From the NCBI GenBank assembly GCA_020059395.1, contig JAGVCC010000258.1:1-32858 (forward strand): a stretch of DNA of 32,858 nucleotides, read 5' to 3'. This DNA comes from Chitinophagales bacterium. Its GTDB lineage: Bacteria; Bacteroidota; Bacteroidia; Chitinophagales; Chitinophagaceae. The number at the start of each line of letters is the position of its first letter. The stretch's first letter is position 1. Below the pieces are notes generated by a model. It was not told where the DNA came from. It made no database searches and saw nothing but the letters and a program-made list of their open reading frames with translations. Both the position numbers and the translations under genes were made by a program. Below, one piece after another: positions 22,608 to 30,931 of this stretch.

Positions 22608-24071
22608 TCAATTAAACCTCGTCCATCCTTTCCACCAGCTTGCCAGTGCACCAGAGGGTGCAACAGCGCCTATAAAATTAGTTGGGGTAAAGAAAGGATC
22701 TGCAACTTTTGCATGAGCAAAACTTGCCCTTGGTGTTATAGTACCGGAAATAGTACCCACTATACTTGAAGCGTTACCAAAAGGAGTTGGGTCTGGTGCT
22801 TCATAATTAAAAGGCTGAATAAACAGATTGACTGGCAATGTTCCATTTAATATGGTGTTTGCCTGTGAGGCTCCTTTAAAATAAGTTACTAAATCTGCTG
22901 TTGTATACGCAGAACCTGATGGTGCAGAATATTTAATACTGTCAGTGTTACCGCCTAAAAATATATTGGCAAGTACCACACCTGTACCAACATTAGCGCC
23001 TGTAGGTGTACCAGTTGTACCATCCACATCAATACCTAGGGGCCAGCCAACAATTACAGAATTGAATAAAGACATTTCTGAGTTTCTTCTGATGTGTGCA
23101 CCAGCCCTGTACAATGAGCTGCCTACATTTGAAGCAGTAGCCCTTGGGCCAATAGCCGTCATGTTACTAAAAACTACCGAAGTTTTTGGTGTTACAGTGG
23201 TGCCGCCGGCATTGTTGTCGCTTTCAAAAGCTTCAGATCTTGAAGCATCTGCAATAACCGAATCTCTTATTGATAATCCAAACTGCACTTTACCGCTGTA
23301 GCCATTGTCCGTATCAAAATCATCATCCTGTGTTTTGTAAGCTACCAGATATTTACAGTTTACTGTACCACCAAACCATTCAAAAGCATCGTCTTTAGCA
23401 AGGTAAGTTTGTACATTTTCTATAACAGTTTTGTTGCCAACAGCAGCCATAGTTAAGCTGTTAATTTCTTTATCTGGCTGAAAGGCGTAACCTGCATATT
23501 CAATTCTTACATAGCGTAAAACACCTGAGCTGTCATTAGCAACAGCAGCAGGCACTGCAGCATCACCGCTGCCGGCAAGGCCATCGCCATTTGAATTATT
23601 TACACCACCTTCTACTTCAAATAAACCTGCAGTTCCGTTAAAGCTGGTGTTAATGGGTGCTTTACCACAAATAATTAAACCACCCCAGTCGCCACTTTGT
23701 GGGTTAGGGCTGGCAGATGTAAACACAATTGGATCAAGTGCTGTACCATTTGCTACAATTTTTGCACCACGGGTTATAATAAGTGCAGCAACATCGCTGC
23801 CACTAAAAGAACCTTTAATGGTGGTACCAGCCTCTATAGTTAATGTTTTATTATTAGCTATATAAACTAAGCCTTTTAATATGTAGGTGTTTGCTTTTTT
23901 AAATATAGTGTCTGATGTAATGCGTCCTTCTACAGTTATTGTTTGGCCTGTACTGCCGCCACCACCGGTGTTGATGGTAACTATCTGAATTTGCCCGTCT
24001 GTTTCAATCTTTCTGCAAGCAGTATTGCTTAAAGCAGCAATTGCAAACAGCATTAAAATGTACTTTTTCAT
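22608..24071 (-). CDS. Probable outer-membrane lipoprotein with parallel beta-helix-like repeats, partner of the adjacent TonB receptor
   Basis: MKKYILMLFAIAALSNTAC signal; GDWGGLIICGKAPIN..EVEGG..VLRYVRIEYAGYAFQPDKEINSLTM..DDAFEWFGGTVNCKYLVAYKTQDDDFDTDNGYSGKVQFG; 30 bp downstream of the TonB receptor stop, same strand. Confidence 0.75.
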   Translation of the reverse strand: MKKYILMLFAIAALSNTACRKIETDGQIQIVTINTGGGGSTGQTITVEGRITSDTIFKKANTYILKGLVYIANNKTLTIEAGTTIKGSFSGSDVAALIITRGAKIVANGTALDPIVFTSASPNPQSGDWGGLIICGKAPINTSFNGTAGLFEVEGGVNNSNGDGLAGSGDAAVPAAVANDSSGVLRYVRIEYAGYAFQPDKEINSLTMAAVGNKTVIENVQTYLAKDDAFEWFGGTVNCKYLVAYKTQDDDFDTDNGYSGKVQFGLSIRDSVIADASRSEAFESDNNAGGTTVTPKTSVVFSNMTAIGPRATASNVGSSLYRAGAHIRRNSEMSLFNSVIVGWPLGIDVDGTTGTPTGANVGTGVVLANIFLGGNTDSIKYSAPSGSAYTTADLVTYFKGASQANTILNGTLPVNLFIQPFNYEAPDPTPFGNASSIVGTISGTITPRASFAHAKVADPFFTPTNFIGAVAPSGALASWWKGWTRFN

Positions 24072-24101: not shown

Positions 24102-26876
24102 TTATAGTGAGTAGTTAAAGGTTATATTAACAGTGGTGCCAAACTGCCTTGTAAAACGGTAGGCATCAATATTTTTTTGAAACCCATCTGAGTTGTTGGC
24201 ATTTTGATAGAAATACTGCACCCTGTTAATGATGTCGGAAATATTCATTTTAATTTCACCTTTACCTTTTACAATTTTCTTAGCTAACTGAAAATCTAAT
24301 AATGGACGGGGTGCTTCATATACATCCGGAGAAGATGCGCCTGCTGCCTTATCACCTACTAAAAATATTCTTTCGCCAATTAAATTAAATAATATGGTGG
24401 CGTTTAAACCATGCTTAGGAGCATCATACAACAGCCCAAGGTTTATAAGATAATTTGACTGGCCCTGCAAGCTTCTGTCTAAATTAAACCTGGCATCTGT
24501 AACCCTGCTTTTTATGATAGCTACATTGGACTGAAACATAAAGTTTTCCATTTGGGGAGCAATAAAATCAAGCTTTTTTCTAAACTCAAGCTCTAAGCCG
24601 GCAGAGTATGCTTCTTCTGCATTTTGAAAATTGAAAGTGCTGGCACCGCCTATACCTTCGTTAAATAACTGTTCAATAGGGTCTTTAAAATATTTATAAA
24701 ATACACCTGCGCTTAACACCTCTCCTGGTTTTTTGTAAAGCTCATATCTAAGATCCAGGTTGGTAACCTTTGTACGTTTTAAAGCAGGGTTACCATTTAC
24801 TGAGGCATTTAATTCAAAGTCGTAAAGATTTAGTGAACTTAATTCTCTAAGCTCTGGCCTTATTACTGTTTGCGATGCTGAAAAACGAAGATTAGTTGTT
24901 GTATTAATTTTGTAAGTAGCATTTAAGCCGGGTAAAAAGTCGGTAACTTTTGAGTAAGTATGGCGGGGATCCCATTTTTTTACACTGCCTACTAACTGGT
25001 CAAAATGTTCTACACGTAAGCCCCAAACCAACCGCAGTTTTTCAAACAGTTCATTGTCAAACTGCAGGTAGCCTGCGTTTAAAATGGTGTTAGCCAAATA
25101 CCGGAAAGTACTTCCTTTAATGGCATCAAAAGCAACTTTATTATCGGTACCTGTGCCAAAATTTTCTGGTGCAAATATTTTATCGGCAGGCAATAGTTTT
25201 AAAGCATCATTATCAACAGGCAGATAGTTTGCAAAAAGTTTTGCATCAAACAAACGGTCTCTTACCTGAAACATGTAACCGCCTTTAATGGTTTGTTTGT
25301 TTTTAAAAGTGTAGGTTAAATCTCCGCCGGTTGTATAAATATAATCGTTTAAAATTTGGTAAATACGGCTGCCGCTTGCCTGAGAAAGTGTGTTTGAAAT
25401 AATTGCCCTGTAAGGATTTGAACTGCCTTTGTCCTTTGAATATTGCAGCCTTCTCTGGTCAGGTGAGTAGCCATCTAAAATAGTAAAAGCACCATTCCAG
25501 TTTAATTTTAAACTTTTAGTAAGGCTGTGCTGTCCGGTAAGTTGTGTGGTGAAAAAAGTGTTTTGTTTAAACGAGTATTCGTAAGCTCTTATATCTTCTG
25601 TACGGGTATCATCAATGCCATTTCTTAATATAGTGCTGTTAGCAGTATTGGTGTTTATAATACTCTTTAAAGATATTTTATTAAGGTTGTTTAACTGCAG
25701 CGATAAACTTGCCAGTGCACCCACCGATGTGTTTTGCAAATACCTTGTATCATTAAAATCTATATCGGTATTTTTAAAAGTTCTTCCGTTTTCAAAATTG
25801 TTATGTCTGTTTACAATATCCTGTATGCTGTTATTTTTTCGGTAAGTAATGCCAAAAATACCACCCAGTGTTTTACCAAACACTTTTCCTTTAAAACCAC
25901 CGTTAACTTCAAAAGCCGCATTTAAGGGTGCAGTAATTTGTGTGGGCGCCCATGCATTACGCATACTTTTACCCATGGCAGTTTTATTGGCAAAACTTGC
26001 TGTATCAAAACCACTCTTTGTAGTATAGGCAGCAGGCAAATTTCTTGTGCCGTCGTCAATACCCAACCAGTCTGTTTTACCGCCTTTATCTTCATAAAAA
26101 TTTTTTCCAATTGTTTGTGTATTAAAGCCAGAGCCAATCTGTACGTTAAAAAAGTTTTTTGCAGGTATATCTTTTGTATTTACCTGTATTAGACCACCAG
26201 CCCACTCGCCTGGATACTCTGGCACAAATGCTTTATTAACAACAATATTATCCACCATGGTGCTGGGTATAATATCAAATGAAAAAGTTTTTCTGTCTGG
26301 CTCGGTACTGGTAAGTAAAATACCATTCAGCATAGCCTGATTGTATCTGTCTGCCAAGCCACGTACCACCAAAAATTTACCTTCCTGTATGCTGGTGCCG
26401 GGTAAACGTTTTAACACCTCACCTGTATTACGGTCGGGGCTTCTTCTGATTGCTTCGGCAGAAATAACCGACGCCACCGTGTTTGTAGTTTTTTGAAAAG
26501 TAAGTAATGCGTTTGTACTTTCACGGCGGGCCGTAGTAGAGCGCACTACAACAGTTTCACTTGTTTTTGCTTTGGGTAATAATGCAATATCTAAATGAGC
26601 AATACCATCACTGCCCGTTTCTACTTCTGTAATTTCTTTACTATCGAAATTGGTTGAAGTAATTGTAACAGTGTATTTTTTACCTGTTTCAATTACCAAA
26701 CTAAAGCGGCCTTCTAAATCTGTAGCAACACCTTTACCCGTTTCTTTTATAATTACCGATACACCTGAAACTGGAGTGCCGGTTTTTGAATCAGTAATTT
26801 TTCCTTCTATTTTTCCCTTTTGGGCAAACAGACTAAAACTGCTTAAGCAAACCAATACGGATAACAATAATCTCAT
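24102..26876 (-). CDS. TonB-dependent outer-membrane receptor with N-terminal carboxypeptidase-regulatory-like domain
   Basis: MRLLLSVLVCLSSFSLFAQ signal; GKITDSKTGTPVSGVSVIIKETGKGVATDLEGRFSL; plug motif VLKRLPGTSIQEGKFLVVRGLADRYNQAMLNG; C-terminal aromatic barrel strand TVNITFNYSL. Confidence 0.94.
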   Translation of the reverse strand: MRLLLSVLVCLSSFSLFAQKGKIEGKITDSKTGTPVSGVSVIIKETGKGVATDLEGRFSLVIETGKKYTVTITSTNFDSKEITEVETGSDGIAHLDIALLPKAKTSETVVVRSTTARRESTNALLTFQKTTNTVASVISAEAIRRSPDRNTGEVLKRLPGTSIQEGKFLVVRGLADRYNQAMLNGILLTSTEPDRKTFSFDIIPSTMVDNIVVNKAFVPEYPGEWAGGLIQVNTKDIPAKNFFNVQIGSGFNTQTIGKNFYEDKGGKTDWLGIDDGTRNLPAAYTTKSGFDTASFANKTAMGKSMRNAWAPTQITAPLNAAFEVNGGFKGKVFGKTLGGIFGITYRKNNSIQDIVNRHNNFENGRTFKNTDIDFNDTRYLQNTSVGALASLSLQLNNLNKISLKSIINTNTANSTILRNGIDDTRTEDIRAYEYSFKQNTFFTTQLTGQHSLTKSLKLNWNGAFTILDGYSPDQRRLQYSKDKGSSNPYRAIISNTLSQASGSRIYQILNDYIYTTGGDLTYTFKNKQTIKGGYMFQVRDRLFDAKLFANYLPVDNDALKLLPADKIFAPENFGTGTDNKVAFDAIKGSTFRYLANTILNAGYLQFDNELFEKLRLVWGLRVEHFDQLVGSVKKWDPRHTYSKVTDFLPGLNATYKINTTTNLRFSASQTVIRPELRELSSLNLYDFELNASVNGNPALKRTKVTNLDLRYELYKKPGEVLSAGVFYKYFKDPIEQLFNEGIGGASTFNFQNAEEAYSAGLELEFRKKLDFIAPQMENFMFQSNVAIIKSRVTDARFNLDRSLQGQSNYLINLGLLYDAPKHGLNATILFNLIGERIFLVGDKAAGASSPDVYEAPRPLLDFQLAKKIVKGKGEIKMNISDIINRVQYFYQNANNSDGFQKNIDAYRFTRQFGTTVNITFNYSL

Positions 26877-26909
26877 GCCGTTAAATTTTATGCAAAGAGA
26901 TTGTTCCAA

Positions 26910-26949
26910 TGTTAACATGCCGTTACTGCAATGTTAACTTAATATGAAC
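26910..26949 (-). promoter_or_regulatory. Putative Pho-box-like array A (11-bp period), oriented toward the TonB receptor
   Basis: On the - strand the 7-mers GTTCATA, GTTAACA, AGTAACG, GTTAACA are spaced exactly 11 bp apart, ending 9 bp upstream of a -7-like TCTCTTTG (26893-26900, -). Confidence 0.45.
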
Positions 26950-26968
26950 AGTGTATATTGTTTGATTT

Positions 26969-27019
26969 GGTAACAATTACATCAAGCTATGGTAACATTA
27001 AGTTTACGTTTTGATAACA
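26969..27019 (+). promoter_or_regulatory. Putative Pho-box-like array B (11-bp period), oriented toward the porin
   Basis: On the + strand GGTAACA (26969), CATCAAG (26980), GGTAACA (26991), GTTTACG (27002), GATAACA (27013), each 11 bp apart. Confidence 0.45.
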
Positions 27020-27087
27020 CAGTTGCCTCAATTTTACAAACTAAGTAATACGGACCTTTCCAGGCCTGTAATGTCTTTAAATTGCAA

Positions 27088-27116
27088 GCTCCGCCTTAAC
27101 TGGCGGGGCTATTTTT
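27088..27116 (+). terminator. Terminator-like hairpin in the 5' region of the porin gene
   Basis: GCTCCGCC-TTAACT-GGCGGGGC stem (one G-U pair) followed by TATTTTT, 86 bp upstream of the ATG at 27202. Confidence 0.5.
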
Positions 27117-27201
27117 GCATGCTTAACAATTTGGTAATATTGAATTGCAGTAAGTGTGTTTTTAAATGTTTTTTTTTGCAGCGCAATTTAAAAGACATTA
27201 T

Positions 27202-28404
27202 ATGAAACAAATAGCATTAACTGCGCTTGCAGTTACTACTGTTATTATTTTACATGCGCAGGCTCAGCCAGCCACAGCTGTAAAAGAAACTAAACGCTGG
27301 TATGAAACCTTTTCAATACGTGGTTACGTACAGGTACGCTACAACCGCCTGCTGGAAACAAATCCAAAACTTAAATGTGAGCAATGCGACCGCTCTGTTG
27401 GAGAAAACGGTGGTTTTATTATACGCCGGGGACGTATTATTCTTAGCGGCAACCTTACCAATAATATATACTTCTATATTCAGCCAGACTTTGGCAGCAG
27501 CACAGGCACCACACAAAATATTTTTCAGGTACGTGATGCATATATGGACATAAGCTTTGATAAAAAAAATGAGTTTCGCTTAAGAGTGGGGCAAAGCAAA
27601 GTGCCTTTTGGTTTTGAAAATATGCAAAGCAGCCAAAACCGTTTACCGCTCGACAGGAATGACGGACTGAATAGTGCTGTTTCTAATGAAAGAGATTTAG
27701 GGGCATTTTTTTACTGGGCGCCTAAAGACAGGCGTGAAATGTTTACTGCATTTGTAAGGGATAATTTTAAAGGCAGTGGCGATTATGGAGTTGCTGCATT
27801 TGGTTTATATAACGGACAAACAGCTAACCGGGCAGAACAAAACAAAAATCTGCACGCAGTTGCCCGTTTTAGTTATCCATTTAAAATTGGCAGCCAAATA
27901 ATAGAGCCTGGGGTACAGGCATATGCAGGCAAGTATGTATTACCGGCTGATTTAAGAAGTGCTGGTGTAAAAGCAGCCAATAATTTTGAGTTTGATGATA
28001 AACGGGTTGCAGCATCTTTCATTGTTTATCCTAAACCTTTGGGCATACAGGCTGAATACAACTGGGGTAAAGGCCCTCAATATAATCCTGTAAAAGATTC
28101 TATTGAGGTGCGTAATCTTGATGGAGGATATATAACAGTATCTTACAGAGCTGCTTTAAAAAACGGTATGTGTCTTTTTCCTTTTACCCGGGTGCAGCAA
28201 TACAATGGGGGTAAAAAACACGAACTGGATGCCCGTAAGTACAATGTAAAGGAAATGGAAACAGGTTTGGAGTGGCAGTTAAATAAAAATTTTGAATTTA
28301 CTGTATCTTACGTGCTGTCTCAGCGCCGATTTGAGGATAATAAAGCAAAAAATAACTTTCAAAAAGGCAATTATATGAGAATGCAGGCACAACTGAATTT
28401 TTAA
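27202..28404 (+). CDS. Phosphate-selective porin O/P family outer-membrane protein
   Basis: MKQIALTALAVTTVIILHAQA signal; GGFIIRRGRIILSGNLTNNIYFYIQPDFG, RLRVGQSKVPFGFENMQSSQNRLPLDR, typical of OprO/OprP-like Bacteroidota porins. Confidence 0.85.
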   Translation: MKQIALTALAVTTVIILHAQAQPATAVKETKRWYETFSIRGYVQVRYNRLLETNPKLKCEQCDRSVGENGGFIIRRGRIILSGNLTNNIYFYIQPDFGSSTGTTQNIFQVRDAYMDISFDKKNEFRLRVGQSKVPFGFENMQSSQNRLPLDRNDGLNSAVSNERDLGAFFYWAPKDRREMFTAFVRDNFKGSGDYGVAAFGLYNGQTANRAEQNKNLHAVARFSYPFKIGSQIIEPGVQAYAGKYVLPADLRSAGVKAANNFEFDDKRVAASFIVYPKPLGIQAEYNWGKGPQYNPVKDSIEVRNLDGGYITVSYRAALKNGMCLFPFTRVQQYNGGKKHELDARKYNVKEMETGLEWQLNKNFEFTVSYVLSQRRFEDNKAKNNFQKGNYMRMQAQLNF

Positions 28405-28457
28405 TGTTAATAAATTATTACCAATAAATAATTACACAGGCTTCTTAAATCACTTTA

Positions 28458-28465
28458 TACATTTG
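28458..28465 (+). promoter_or_regulatory. -7-like element upstream of the DUF47 gene
   Basis: TACATTTG matches TAnnTTTG, 15 nt upstream of ATG 28480; no clear -33 element. Confidence 0.35.
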
Positions 28466-28479
28466 CAAAAATTAATTTT

Positions 28480-29130
28480 ATGGCAGGATTAAACTCAATT
28501 TTAAAAATATTTTTACCTAAGGACAGGGTGTTTTTTCAACTGTTTGAAAACGTGGCAGATGAACTGGTGAAAATGGGTGAAAAATTAAAAGAGATAGTTA
28601 GTGAATCAGACTTTGATAAAAGGGCAGCACTGATAAAGGAAATTGAAGACATGGAGCATGTAAATGATGATTATACCCATCAGATATTTACAGAGCTTGG
28701 TAAAAACTTCATTACGCCTTTTGACAGAGAAGACATACACTACCTTGCCACGGCGCTGGATGATATAGCTGACTATATCTATGCATCAGCCAAAAAAATA
28801 AATTTTTACCACGTAAATCCTAACGATACTGGCATTCAAAAAATGGCCGATGTTATTGCACAGGGTTGTGTGGCTGTAAGTAAAGCCGTAAAAGAACTGC
28901 GTAACATGAAAAACATGCGGCAGATTACAGATGCGCTGGTACAAATAAACAGTATAGAAAACCAGGGTGATGATATTTTTGATATGAGCATTGAAAAACT
29001 GTTTGCAGAAGAAAACGATGCCAAAGAAGTAATTAAGAAAAGAGAAATTTATCAGGTAATGGAAATTGTTACTGATAAATGTGAAGATGCTGCGAATGTA
29101 ATTGAAAGCATAATTGTAAAGTACGCTTAG
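28480..29130 (+). CDS. DUF47 family protein (PhoU-like Pit accessory protein)
   Basis: 216-aa helical protein: FLPKDRVFFQLFENVADELVKMGEKL..DMEHVNDDYTHQIFTELGKNFITPFDREDIHYLATALDDIADYIYA; directly upstream of a Pit-type transporter. Confidence 0.92.
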   Translation: MAGLNSILKIFLPKDRVFFQLFENVADELVKMGEKLKEIVSESDFDKRAALIKEIEDMEHVNDDYTHQIFTELGKNFITPFDREDIHYLATALDDIADYIYASAKKINFYHVNPNDTGIQKMADVIAQGCVAVSKAVKELRNMKNMRQITDALVQINSIENQGDDIFDMSIEKLFAEENDAKEVIKKREIYQVMEIVTDKCEDAANVIESIIVKYA

Positions 29131-29221: not shown

Positions 29222-30931
29222 ATGACTCTTGTAATAGTAATTGTAGCCCTTGCGCTTATATTCGATTATATCAATGGCTTCCATGATGCAGCCAATTCTA
29301 TAGCTACAGTGGTATCCACTAAGGTACTTACTCCTTTTCAGGCGGTGGTTTGGGCAGCAATTTTTAATGTGGCTGCTTATTTTATTTTTAGCGATCATGC
29401 AGTTGCCAATACCATAAGCAAAACCGTTAATAAAGAATTTATTACCCTTCCCGTAATTCTTTCGGGCCTTATTGCAGCTATTTTCTGGAATCTGCTTACC
29501 TGGTGGTATGGCATTCCCTCTTCTTCTTCGCATACATTAATTGGCGGTTTTGCCGGTGCGGCAATTGCACACGCTATATCAATAAAAGGCGTAGGAATAA
29601 GCTGGGGTAAAATTGTAGAAGGCAGTATAATTTTAAAAACTGTGCTGTTCATCTTTTTAGCACCGCTTATTGGTATGGGTATATCCATCTTTATTACCAT
29701 TGTAACCATAATGCGTAACGTATGGGCCCGTATTGGCATTATAGCAGTGGCCACTTTTCTTACCGTTATACTCTTCGACAGGTTTGAAGAAAGCAAGATG
29801 GATGAAAACCTGCAAAAGTTTTTAAAGTACGATAAATATAAAACGGAAGTTACCACTGCAAACGCAAAACTAAAAGCTGACAAAAATAATGCAGCTGTTT
29901 TAATGGAGTACGAAACCGCCAAAGAAAAATTAGACAAAGCCACTCCCAACTATAAAAAATTAGCTGCCTTAGTAAATAATTTTGATAACCTGGGGGCTGC
30001 AAAAATAGCCGCTCAGGCTACAGAACAGGGGCTTTTAAAAGATATTGAAGCAAGCCGATTAAAGGATGATATACGCAATGCAAACGACTATTTAATTTTA
30101 GAGGCCGAAGCCACTGCAGATTCTTCAAAAAAAGCAGCATTTGCCGTTGCAAAAGTTGAAACAGAAAAATATAAAGAGCCGCTAAAAAAATATTTTAAAA
30201 AAGAAATTTTAATTGACAGTGCGCTTACCGCACTTAACAGCATTTACCCAATAAAAGAAGCCAACAGAAAAAAAATTAAGGATAAAATAGAAAAGTTTAA
30301 CATTGAAAAAGCGCTGGTAAAAGATATTGACAAAGCTGATAACAGCGGCATTGTATGGGGCATTATAGCATCTTCTTTATTATTCTGCCTGGTGTATTTG
30401 TATGTTGAAAAAATAAAAACACCAACCGCATATAAAGTTGCCACCATGTTTAAGCGCCTGCAGTTATTCAGTTCCGCAGCATTCAGCATTGGGCATGGCG
30501 GTAACGATGCACAAAAAGTAATGGGCATTATTGGTGCCGCACTTATAGCCAACGGCAATATTCAAAACTTTAGCGATTTACCGGCGTGGGTGCCCATAGC
30601 CTGTTATGTTGCTATTGGGCTGGGTACTATGAGTGGTGGCTGGAAAATTGTAAAAACAATGGGTACTAAAATTACCAAAGTAACCCCACTGGAAGGAGTT
30701 GCAGCTGAAACAGCCGGTGCCTTTACACTGTTTTTTACCGGGCAAATGGGAATCCCCGTATCCACTACACATACCATTACAGGCTCAATTATTGGGGTTG
30801 GGGCTACAAAACGTTTAAGTGCGGTACGCTGGGGTGTTACAGTAAATCTGCTGTGGGCATGGATACTAACTATACCAGTAAGTGGTTTGCTGGCAGCCCT
30901 TACTTACTATGTTGTTTCAATGTTCAGCTAA
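29222..30931 (+). CDS. Inorganic phosphate transporter, PiT family, with long central hydrophilic insertion
   Basis: N-half DYINGFHDAANSIATVVSTKVLTPFQAV and GIPSSSSHTLIGGFAGAAIA; C-half SIGHGGNDAQKVMGIIGAAL and GIPVSTTHTITGSIIGVGATKR; about 190 hydrophilic residues between. Confidence 0.95.
   Translation: MTLVIVIVALALIFDYINGFHDAANSIATVVSTKVLTPFQAVVWAAIFNVAAYFIFSDHAVANTISKTVNKEFITLPVILSGLIAAIFWNLLTWWYGIPSSSSHTLIGGFAGAAIAHAISIKGVGISWGKIVEGSIILKTVLFIFLAPLIGMGISIFITIVTIMRNVWARIGIIAVATFLTVILFDRFEESKMDENLQKFLKYDKYKTEVTTANAKLKADKNNAAVLMEYETAKEKLDKATPNYKKLAALVNNFDNLGAAKIAAQATEQGLLKDIEASRLKDDIRNANDYLILEAEATADSSKKAAFAVAKVETEKYKEPLKKYFKKEILIDSALTALNSIYPIKEANRKKIKDKIEKFNIEKALVKDIDKADNSGIVWGIIASSLLFCLVYLYVEKIKTPTAYKVATMFKRLQLFSSAAFSIGHGGNDAQKVMGIIGAALIANGNIQNFSDLPAWVPIACYVAIGLGTMSGGWKIVKTMGTKITKVTPLEGVAAETAGAFTLFFTGQMGIPVSTTHTITGSIIGVGATKRLSAVRWGVTVNLLWAWILTIPVSGLLAALTYYVVSMFS

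Follow-up and report, generated by a model that had tools for sequence, protein, structure and literature searches.

In a 32,858-nucleotide stretch of a Chitinophagales bacterium (GenBank assembly GCA_020059395.1, contig JAGVCC010000258.1), here termed the window, the genes for a TonB-dependent receptor and a porin diverge from a 325-bp intergenic region (33% guanine plus cytosine), which holds two arrays of related 7-mers, array A facing the receptor and array B facing the porin. The locus thus raises the question of whether these repeats are operators of a PhoB-type regulator, i.e. Pho boxes, and which of the adjacent genes they may serve. A sequence-only reading of the window had proposed such a role, placing the receptor, the lipoprotein encoded downstream of it and the porin in one phosphate-starvation regulon. 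The present analysis indicates that array A is very probably a PhoB-type operator of Bacteroidota, that array B and a weak third pair (array C) probably serve likewise for the porin-DUF47-pit genes, and that a reverse-oriented box (box D) would represent a second class of site. As judged from sequence comparison, the anchor of the Pho-box reading is the receptor and not the porin, since array A is conserved family-wide.

Repeat arrays in the receptor promoter

All nine of the 7-mers listed in the sequence-only reading were found in place on an exact 11-bp pitch, and the −7-like element TCTCTTTG was confirmed 9 bp past the end of array A. For an independent assessment, a four-unit matrix and a promoter model were trained on 27 regions located upstream of receptor orthologs in further genomes of this family, the window being excluded. 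Array A was the top site in the window for both; in the matrix scan of the two strands it scored 27.4, followed by array B with 14.7, while the next unrelated site scored −6.9. Within the intergenic region, the best four-unit scores were 27.5 on the minus strand and 17.9 on the plus strand. Array A was also the top site of the promoter model in the whole source genome (E 6.3e-5, the E-values of this model being rough), which is represented by a fragmentary assembly of 3.68 Mb, 85% complete.

The low GC content of the region could be taken to favor an origin of the repeats by chance in AT-rich intergenic DNA, yet shuffled sequence did not reproduce them. Of 3000 dinucleotide shuffles of the intergenic region, none attained 27.4, a single one attained 14.7, and none did so on the two strands at once; in a matrix-free count, 0 of 20,000 shuffles contained as many pairs of exact GKTAACA words in 11-bp register. 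The score is lost when other periods are imposed, falling to between −2 and −21 at 9, 10, 12 and 13 bp, and the arrangement is conserved in dozens of genomes. For array A, chance may be regarded as refuted.

In the 27 orthologous receptor promoters, same-strand TAAC words are separated by 11, 22, 33 and 44 bp in 39, 32, 25 and 16 cases, respectively, and by any other distance in at most 3; no TAAC periodicity was found on the strand opposite to the receptor direction in these promoters. The unit consensus derived from the four-unit matrix is [CG]KTAAYAtTN, the units being arranged head-to-tail and usually numbering at least four. Among loci of named genomes, retrieved with the lipoprotein alignment, an array precedes the receptor in nearly all Chitinophagaceae (scores 23-52); weaker arrays appear outside the family (Hymenobacter 25.2, Pontibacter 19.8, and others), together with variants, of the CTGTAAC type in Bacteroidales and of the TTAA type, on an 11-bp pitch, in Chryseobacterium. 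The 11-bp phasing is conserved before the receptor across Chitinophagaceae, and the proposed architecture of a 7-bp unit plus a 4-bp spacer was borne out by both the ortholog comparison and the period test.

The −7 element of Bacteroidota promoters is TAnnTTTG. In array A, the T of the last TAAC is located 18 bp from the TTTG of this element, and the same distance separates the last TAAY from TTTG (or TTTC/TTTA) in all 27 orthologs, i.e. in 28 promoters. Because this spacing is shared by all orthologs, array A exemplifies a promoter design common to the family, with the repeats holding the position that the upstream −33 element would take. The earlier suggestion that a Pho box substitutes here for the upstream promoter element is thereby supported.

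Regulon and regulator

In 15 genomes of the family, the promoter model placed sites upstream of PlcP-like phosphoesterase genes in 8 (with about 130 bp in between in G129 and G089), of phosphodiesterase/alkaline-phosphatase-superfamily genes in two, of genes for choice-of-anchor I proteins in two, and of further TonB receptor genes. PlcP belongs to the phosphate-starvation genes both of marine bacteria (PMC4796936) and of Flavobacterium johnsoniae (PMC8115612). In the latter, the receptor Fjoh_0545 and the lipoprotein FII (Fjoh_0546), encoded beside phoBR, rise by log2 8.0 and 9.9, respectively, upon phosphate depletion (PMC8115612). Orthologs of phoB are found some 7-21 kb from the receptor gene and/or PlcP in four relatives. 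Since ortholog conservation, the regulon targets, the clustering with phoB and the published data agree, the Pho-box reading holds for the receptor and the lipoprotein. The proposed common regulon therefore stands, on comparative grounds and on the data from relatives, for these two genes; for the porin, whose ortholog lacks an array, the case is weaker.

Direct repeats on an 11-bp pitch are common across the OmpR family, and the arrays could instead bind another response regulator of this family (e.g. ArcA-like or RprY-like) that responds to a non-phosphate signal. The source genome encodes five PhoB-like regulators that are full-length and score similarly, and a report on Riemerella anatipestifer PhoP likens its motif to that of Escherichia coli ArcA, another OmpR-family regulator (PMC9603813). 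The targets of the window-blind model are nevertheless phosphorus genes (PlcP and the phosphatase superfamily), the PhoB ortholog is a genomic neighbour in the four relatives mentioned above, and the F. johnsoniae pair is induced by phosphate depletion, while its low-phosphate loci are reported to be repressed under nitrogen and iron limitation (PMC8115612). We consider such a regulator improbable.

In addition to the ArcA likeness, several observations weigh against the Pho-box reading. The source genome contains few other confident sites and several weak matches without a plausible target, and neither a PstS-type binding protein nor PhoX was found in its 85%-complete assembly. The remaining points concern the porin. 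The F. johnsoniae OprP, encoded in the same cluster as the induced pair, is not phosphate-induced (PMC8115612), and the only close ortholog of the porin (G198, 61% identity) has neither a forward array nor DUF47 nearby.

The sequence-only reading had suggested scanning the genome for sites before phoX, pstS and phoB-like genes. Of these, phoX and pstS were the genes missing from the assembly, and a weak site was located upstream of the best PhoB-family gene, on contig C352, which is cut by the contig end. A search for PlcP in this genome returned nothing better than a match at 22% identity. Loose scans of the same genome (TAACA pairs with any gap, or a three-unit pattern in the code of the International Union of Pure and Applied Chemistry with one mismatch) yielded no more matches than a control with the pattern reversed, and only the trained model was therefore used. 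Among its matches, that on C167, near a second PhoB-like regulator, was rejected as it falls inside a kinase reading frame, and those on C89 and C156 were rejected for want of a plausible target gene.

Several sites extend beyond this set of genes. The arrays before choice-of-anchor I family proteins (L164 801-851, L166 4549-4586) occur in two genera and mark these proteins as candidate members of the phosphate regulon. A four-unit array precedes the replicative helicase gene dnaB by about 140 bp in two related species (L148 868-914, L150 789-831); R. anatipestifer PhoP is reported to bind the dnaG promoter, and a link between phosphate and replication is conceivable. In the source genome, two array-like sites (L095, G000:C66, 5713-5743 and 6400-6448) are located around the gene for a small lipoprotein and a pair of SusCD-like genes, a possible phosphate utilisation locus.

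Organization of the locus

The genes and regulatory features of the locus are presented in Table 1. The lipoprotein has no Pfam match and no sequence relatives in the PDB. Its predicted model is confident and all-beta (predicted local distance difference test 86), and the PDB matches of this model are mostly of the beta-helix type (pectate-lyase/polygalacturonase-type), all weak and none at E <= 0.001. Given the lack of detectable PstS and PhoX in the incomplete assembly, phosphate uptake in this organism may depend on PiT.

Table 1. Genes, repeat arrays and promoter elements of the receptor-porin locus, in window coordinates
Feature	Position	Strand	Details
Lipoprotein gene	22608..24071	-	downstream of receptor gene
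TonB-dependent receptor gene	24102..26876	-	924 aa; start ATG at 26876
-7-like element TCTCTTTG	26893..26900	-	TonB-receptor promoter; 9 bp beyond last array A unit
Array A	26907..26950	-	four 11-bp units toward receptor gene: GTTCATA 26943-26949, GTTAACA 26932-26938, AGTAACG 26921-26927, GTTAACA 26910-26916
Array B	26968..27022	+	five 11-bp units toward porin: GGTAACA 26969-26975, CATCAAG 26980-26986, GGTAACA 26991-26997, GTTTACG 27002-27008, GATAACA 27013-27019
Weak -7-like element CAATTTTA	27029..27036	+	behind array B; conserved phase; 4/6 consensus positions
Terminator-like hairpin AGCTCCGCC-TTAACT-GGCGGGGCT + ATTTTTG	27087..27116	+	between array B and porin start
Array C	27122..27139	+	weak third pair CTTAACA, GGTAATA; 12.5 bits, E 0.0039
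TTTTTTTG	27171-27178	+	near porin start; in phase with array C
Porin gene	27202..28404	+	Pfam Porin_O_P
Box D TGGTAATAATTTATTAACATTA	28402..28423	-	reverse-oriented, two units; 56 bp before DUF47 -7
-7 element TACATTTG	28458..28465	+	DUF47-pit genes
DUF47 / PhoU_div gene	28480..29130	+	after porin; partner of PiT transporters
PiT-type phosphate transporter gene (PHO4)	29222..30931	+	

Array B and the porin leader

The evidence for the porin half of the reading comes from the window sequence itself. Array B, second-ranked with the ortholog matrix, scores no higher than 9.3 bits under the promoter-anchored model. Its CATCAAG unit matches GKTAACA poorly; degenerate CATCAT/TTCAC units recur within the orthologous receptor arrays. 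Such a unit often divides the receptor arrays (L004, L012 and similar loci) into two groups of units, and the CATCAAG of array B resembles it. Array C had been overlooked in the sequence-only reading.

The leader of the porin gene (27060-27202) is predicted to fold very strongly (z −6), with the terminator-like hairpin inside it and a long-range helix, pairing 27069-27081 with 27188-27200, that covers the ribosome-binding site; it may represent an attenuator or a small RNA. A mobile element was ruled out as its source, the leader being single copy in the genome.

These features bear on an alternative whereby only array A serves a protein gene, array B driving a short RNA terminated by the hairpin and the porin having its promoter near its own start. 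Consistent with this are the strong stem and its T tail, some 70 bases downstream of the start expected from array B, the weakness of the −7 element behind this array, the phasing of array C with TTTTTTTG and the porin ortholog devoid of a forward array. Against it, an Rfam search of the leader gave no RNA family above threshold, the leader is present in a single copy, and five in-phase units in array B are improbable by chance. The short RNA is thus an unlikely explanation, though not a negligible one, and the role of arrays B and C in the expression of the porin-DUF47-pit genes is retained as probable.

A probable promoter of the DUF47-pit genes

Box D, which had also escaped the sequence-only reading, overlaps the end of the porin gene. 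In 25 of 29 relatives (L007, L013, L097, L191, L200, L213 and others), the reversed box starts at a distance of 56-57 bp upstream of the −7 element. When the window is included, the best reversed score is at least 12 in 23 of 30 DUF47-pit regions (shuffle probability 0.0013), and none of the 30 reaches 12 in the forward orientation. The DUF47-pit loci are related by descent, and the count therefore shows conservation and not independent events. Because box D and TACATTTG stand at a conserved spacing, the DUF47-pit genes are apparently transcribed from a promoter of their own, which would carry a box for this regulator as well.

The sign of this control may differ from that at the receptor. In Sinorhizobium meliloti, PhoB represses the DUF47-pit pair orfA-pit, and box D (perhaps also array B) could similarly make PhoB a repressor, rather than an activator, of the low-affinity PiT operon. 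The reversed orientation of box D and its fixed distance from the DUF47 −7 element in most relatives, in contrast to the activating arrangement of the receptor promoter, would suit such a role. Many activators, however, also bind upstream of the −33 position, and in this species porin-directed arrays are located upstream of the same DUF47-pit genes. Repression by box D is given only slightly less than an even chance.

An extension of both observations would be that a single Pho box serves the whole phylum Bacteroidota in two fixed layouts of opposite sign, to which porin-directed arrays were added in this species, before a porin gene lying upstream of the DUF47-pit operon. The forward, activating layout would comprise three to six units of 11 bp, the array ending 18 bp upstream of the TTTG of the −7 element, at receptors and scavenging enzymes; the reverse layout would consist of a two-unit box 56-57 bp before the DUF47-pit −7 element. 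This broader scheme is put forward tentatively, as a possibility somewhat more doubtful than not.

Comparison with known phosphate boxes

The E. coli PhoB box, composed of CTGTCAT repeats as at pstS, is located immediately before the −10 element, at the site otherwise taken by the −35 element. In its 11-nt unit, 7 positions are conserved and 4 less so (PMC4415409). The arrays described here resemble it in having at least two head-to-tail 11-nt units of the 7+4 type just upstream of a core promoter element. They differ in their core, which is KTAAYA and not TGTCA (the CTGTCAT core was not encountered), in their usual number of at least four units, and in being locked 18 bp from TAnnTTTG. The Bacillus subtilis PhoP box consists of TTAACA-like repeats on an 11-bp pitch. 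Its core word is nearly identical and the pitch is the same, whereas the phylum, sigma factor and targets are different, and the fixed TAnnTTTG spacing and the reverse two-unit variant at pit are features of the arrays presented here.

Within the phylum, the available part of the R. anatipestifer report describes a PhoP that is induced by phosphate starvation, has a motif centred on TTTAACA by DNA affinity purification sequencing, and shifts a TonB-receptor promoter (PMC9603813). The likeness extends to the phylum, a phosphate-responsive PhoP/PhoB, the core word and the type of promoter bound; many of the targets listed in that part, in contrast, are not phosphorus genes, and array length, 11-bp pitch and −7 spacing were not found described in it. 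According to the accessible part of another report, Bacteroides fragilis PhoB binds the pstC promoter, with no box sequence given there (PMC3547664). The F. johnsoniae phoBR/PUSIV cluster encodes OprP, PhoR, PhoB, the TonB receptor Fjoh_0545 and the lipoprotein FII (Fjoh_0546), and is likened to the present locus by its gene pair, a receptor followed by a lipoprotein of putative beta-helix type, and by the phosphate induction expected here; the main text of that paper mentions no Pho box (PMC8115612). Despite several reports of phosphate-induced genes, no defined Pho box for Bacteroidota was found in the open-access papers searched.

Proposed mechanism and significance

In phosphate-starved cells, the PhoB-family regulator in its phosphorylated form would bind adjacent units in tandem, such that each 11-bp step accommodates one subunit and all subunits lie on the same side of the helix. 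The bound regulator would take the place of the upstream (−33) element and recruit RNA polymerase to the receptor promoter, such that the receptor and the putative beta-helix lipoprotein would be switched on for the scavenging and uptake of phosphorus compounds at the outer membrane. Array B, together with array C, would probably act likewise on the porin-DUF47-pit genes, and at box D, a second, reverse-oriented class of site, the same regulator may tune the DUF47-pit promoter.

Bacteroidota of soils and the sea are shaped by the scarcity of phosphate, and for many of the receptors and lipoproteins that they induce under starvation no function is known. With a quantitative motif set at a constant distance from the promoter element, phosphate regulons could be read directly from the genomes and metagenomes of this phylum, and orphan TonB receptors and beta-helix lipoproteins could be assigned to phosphorus scavenging.

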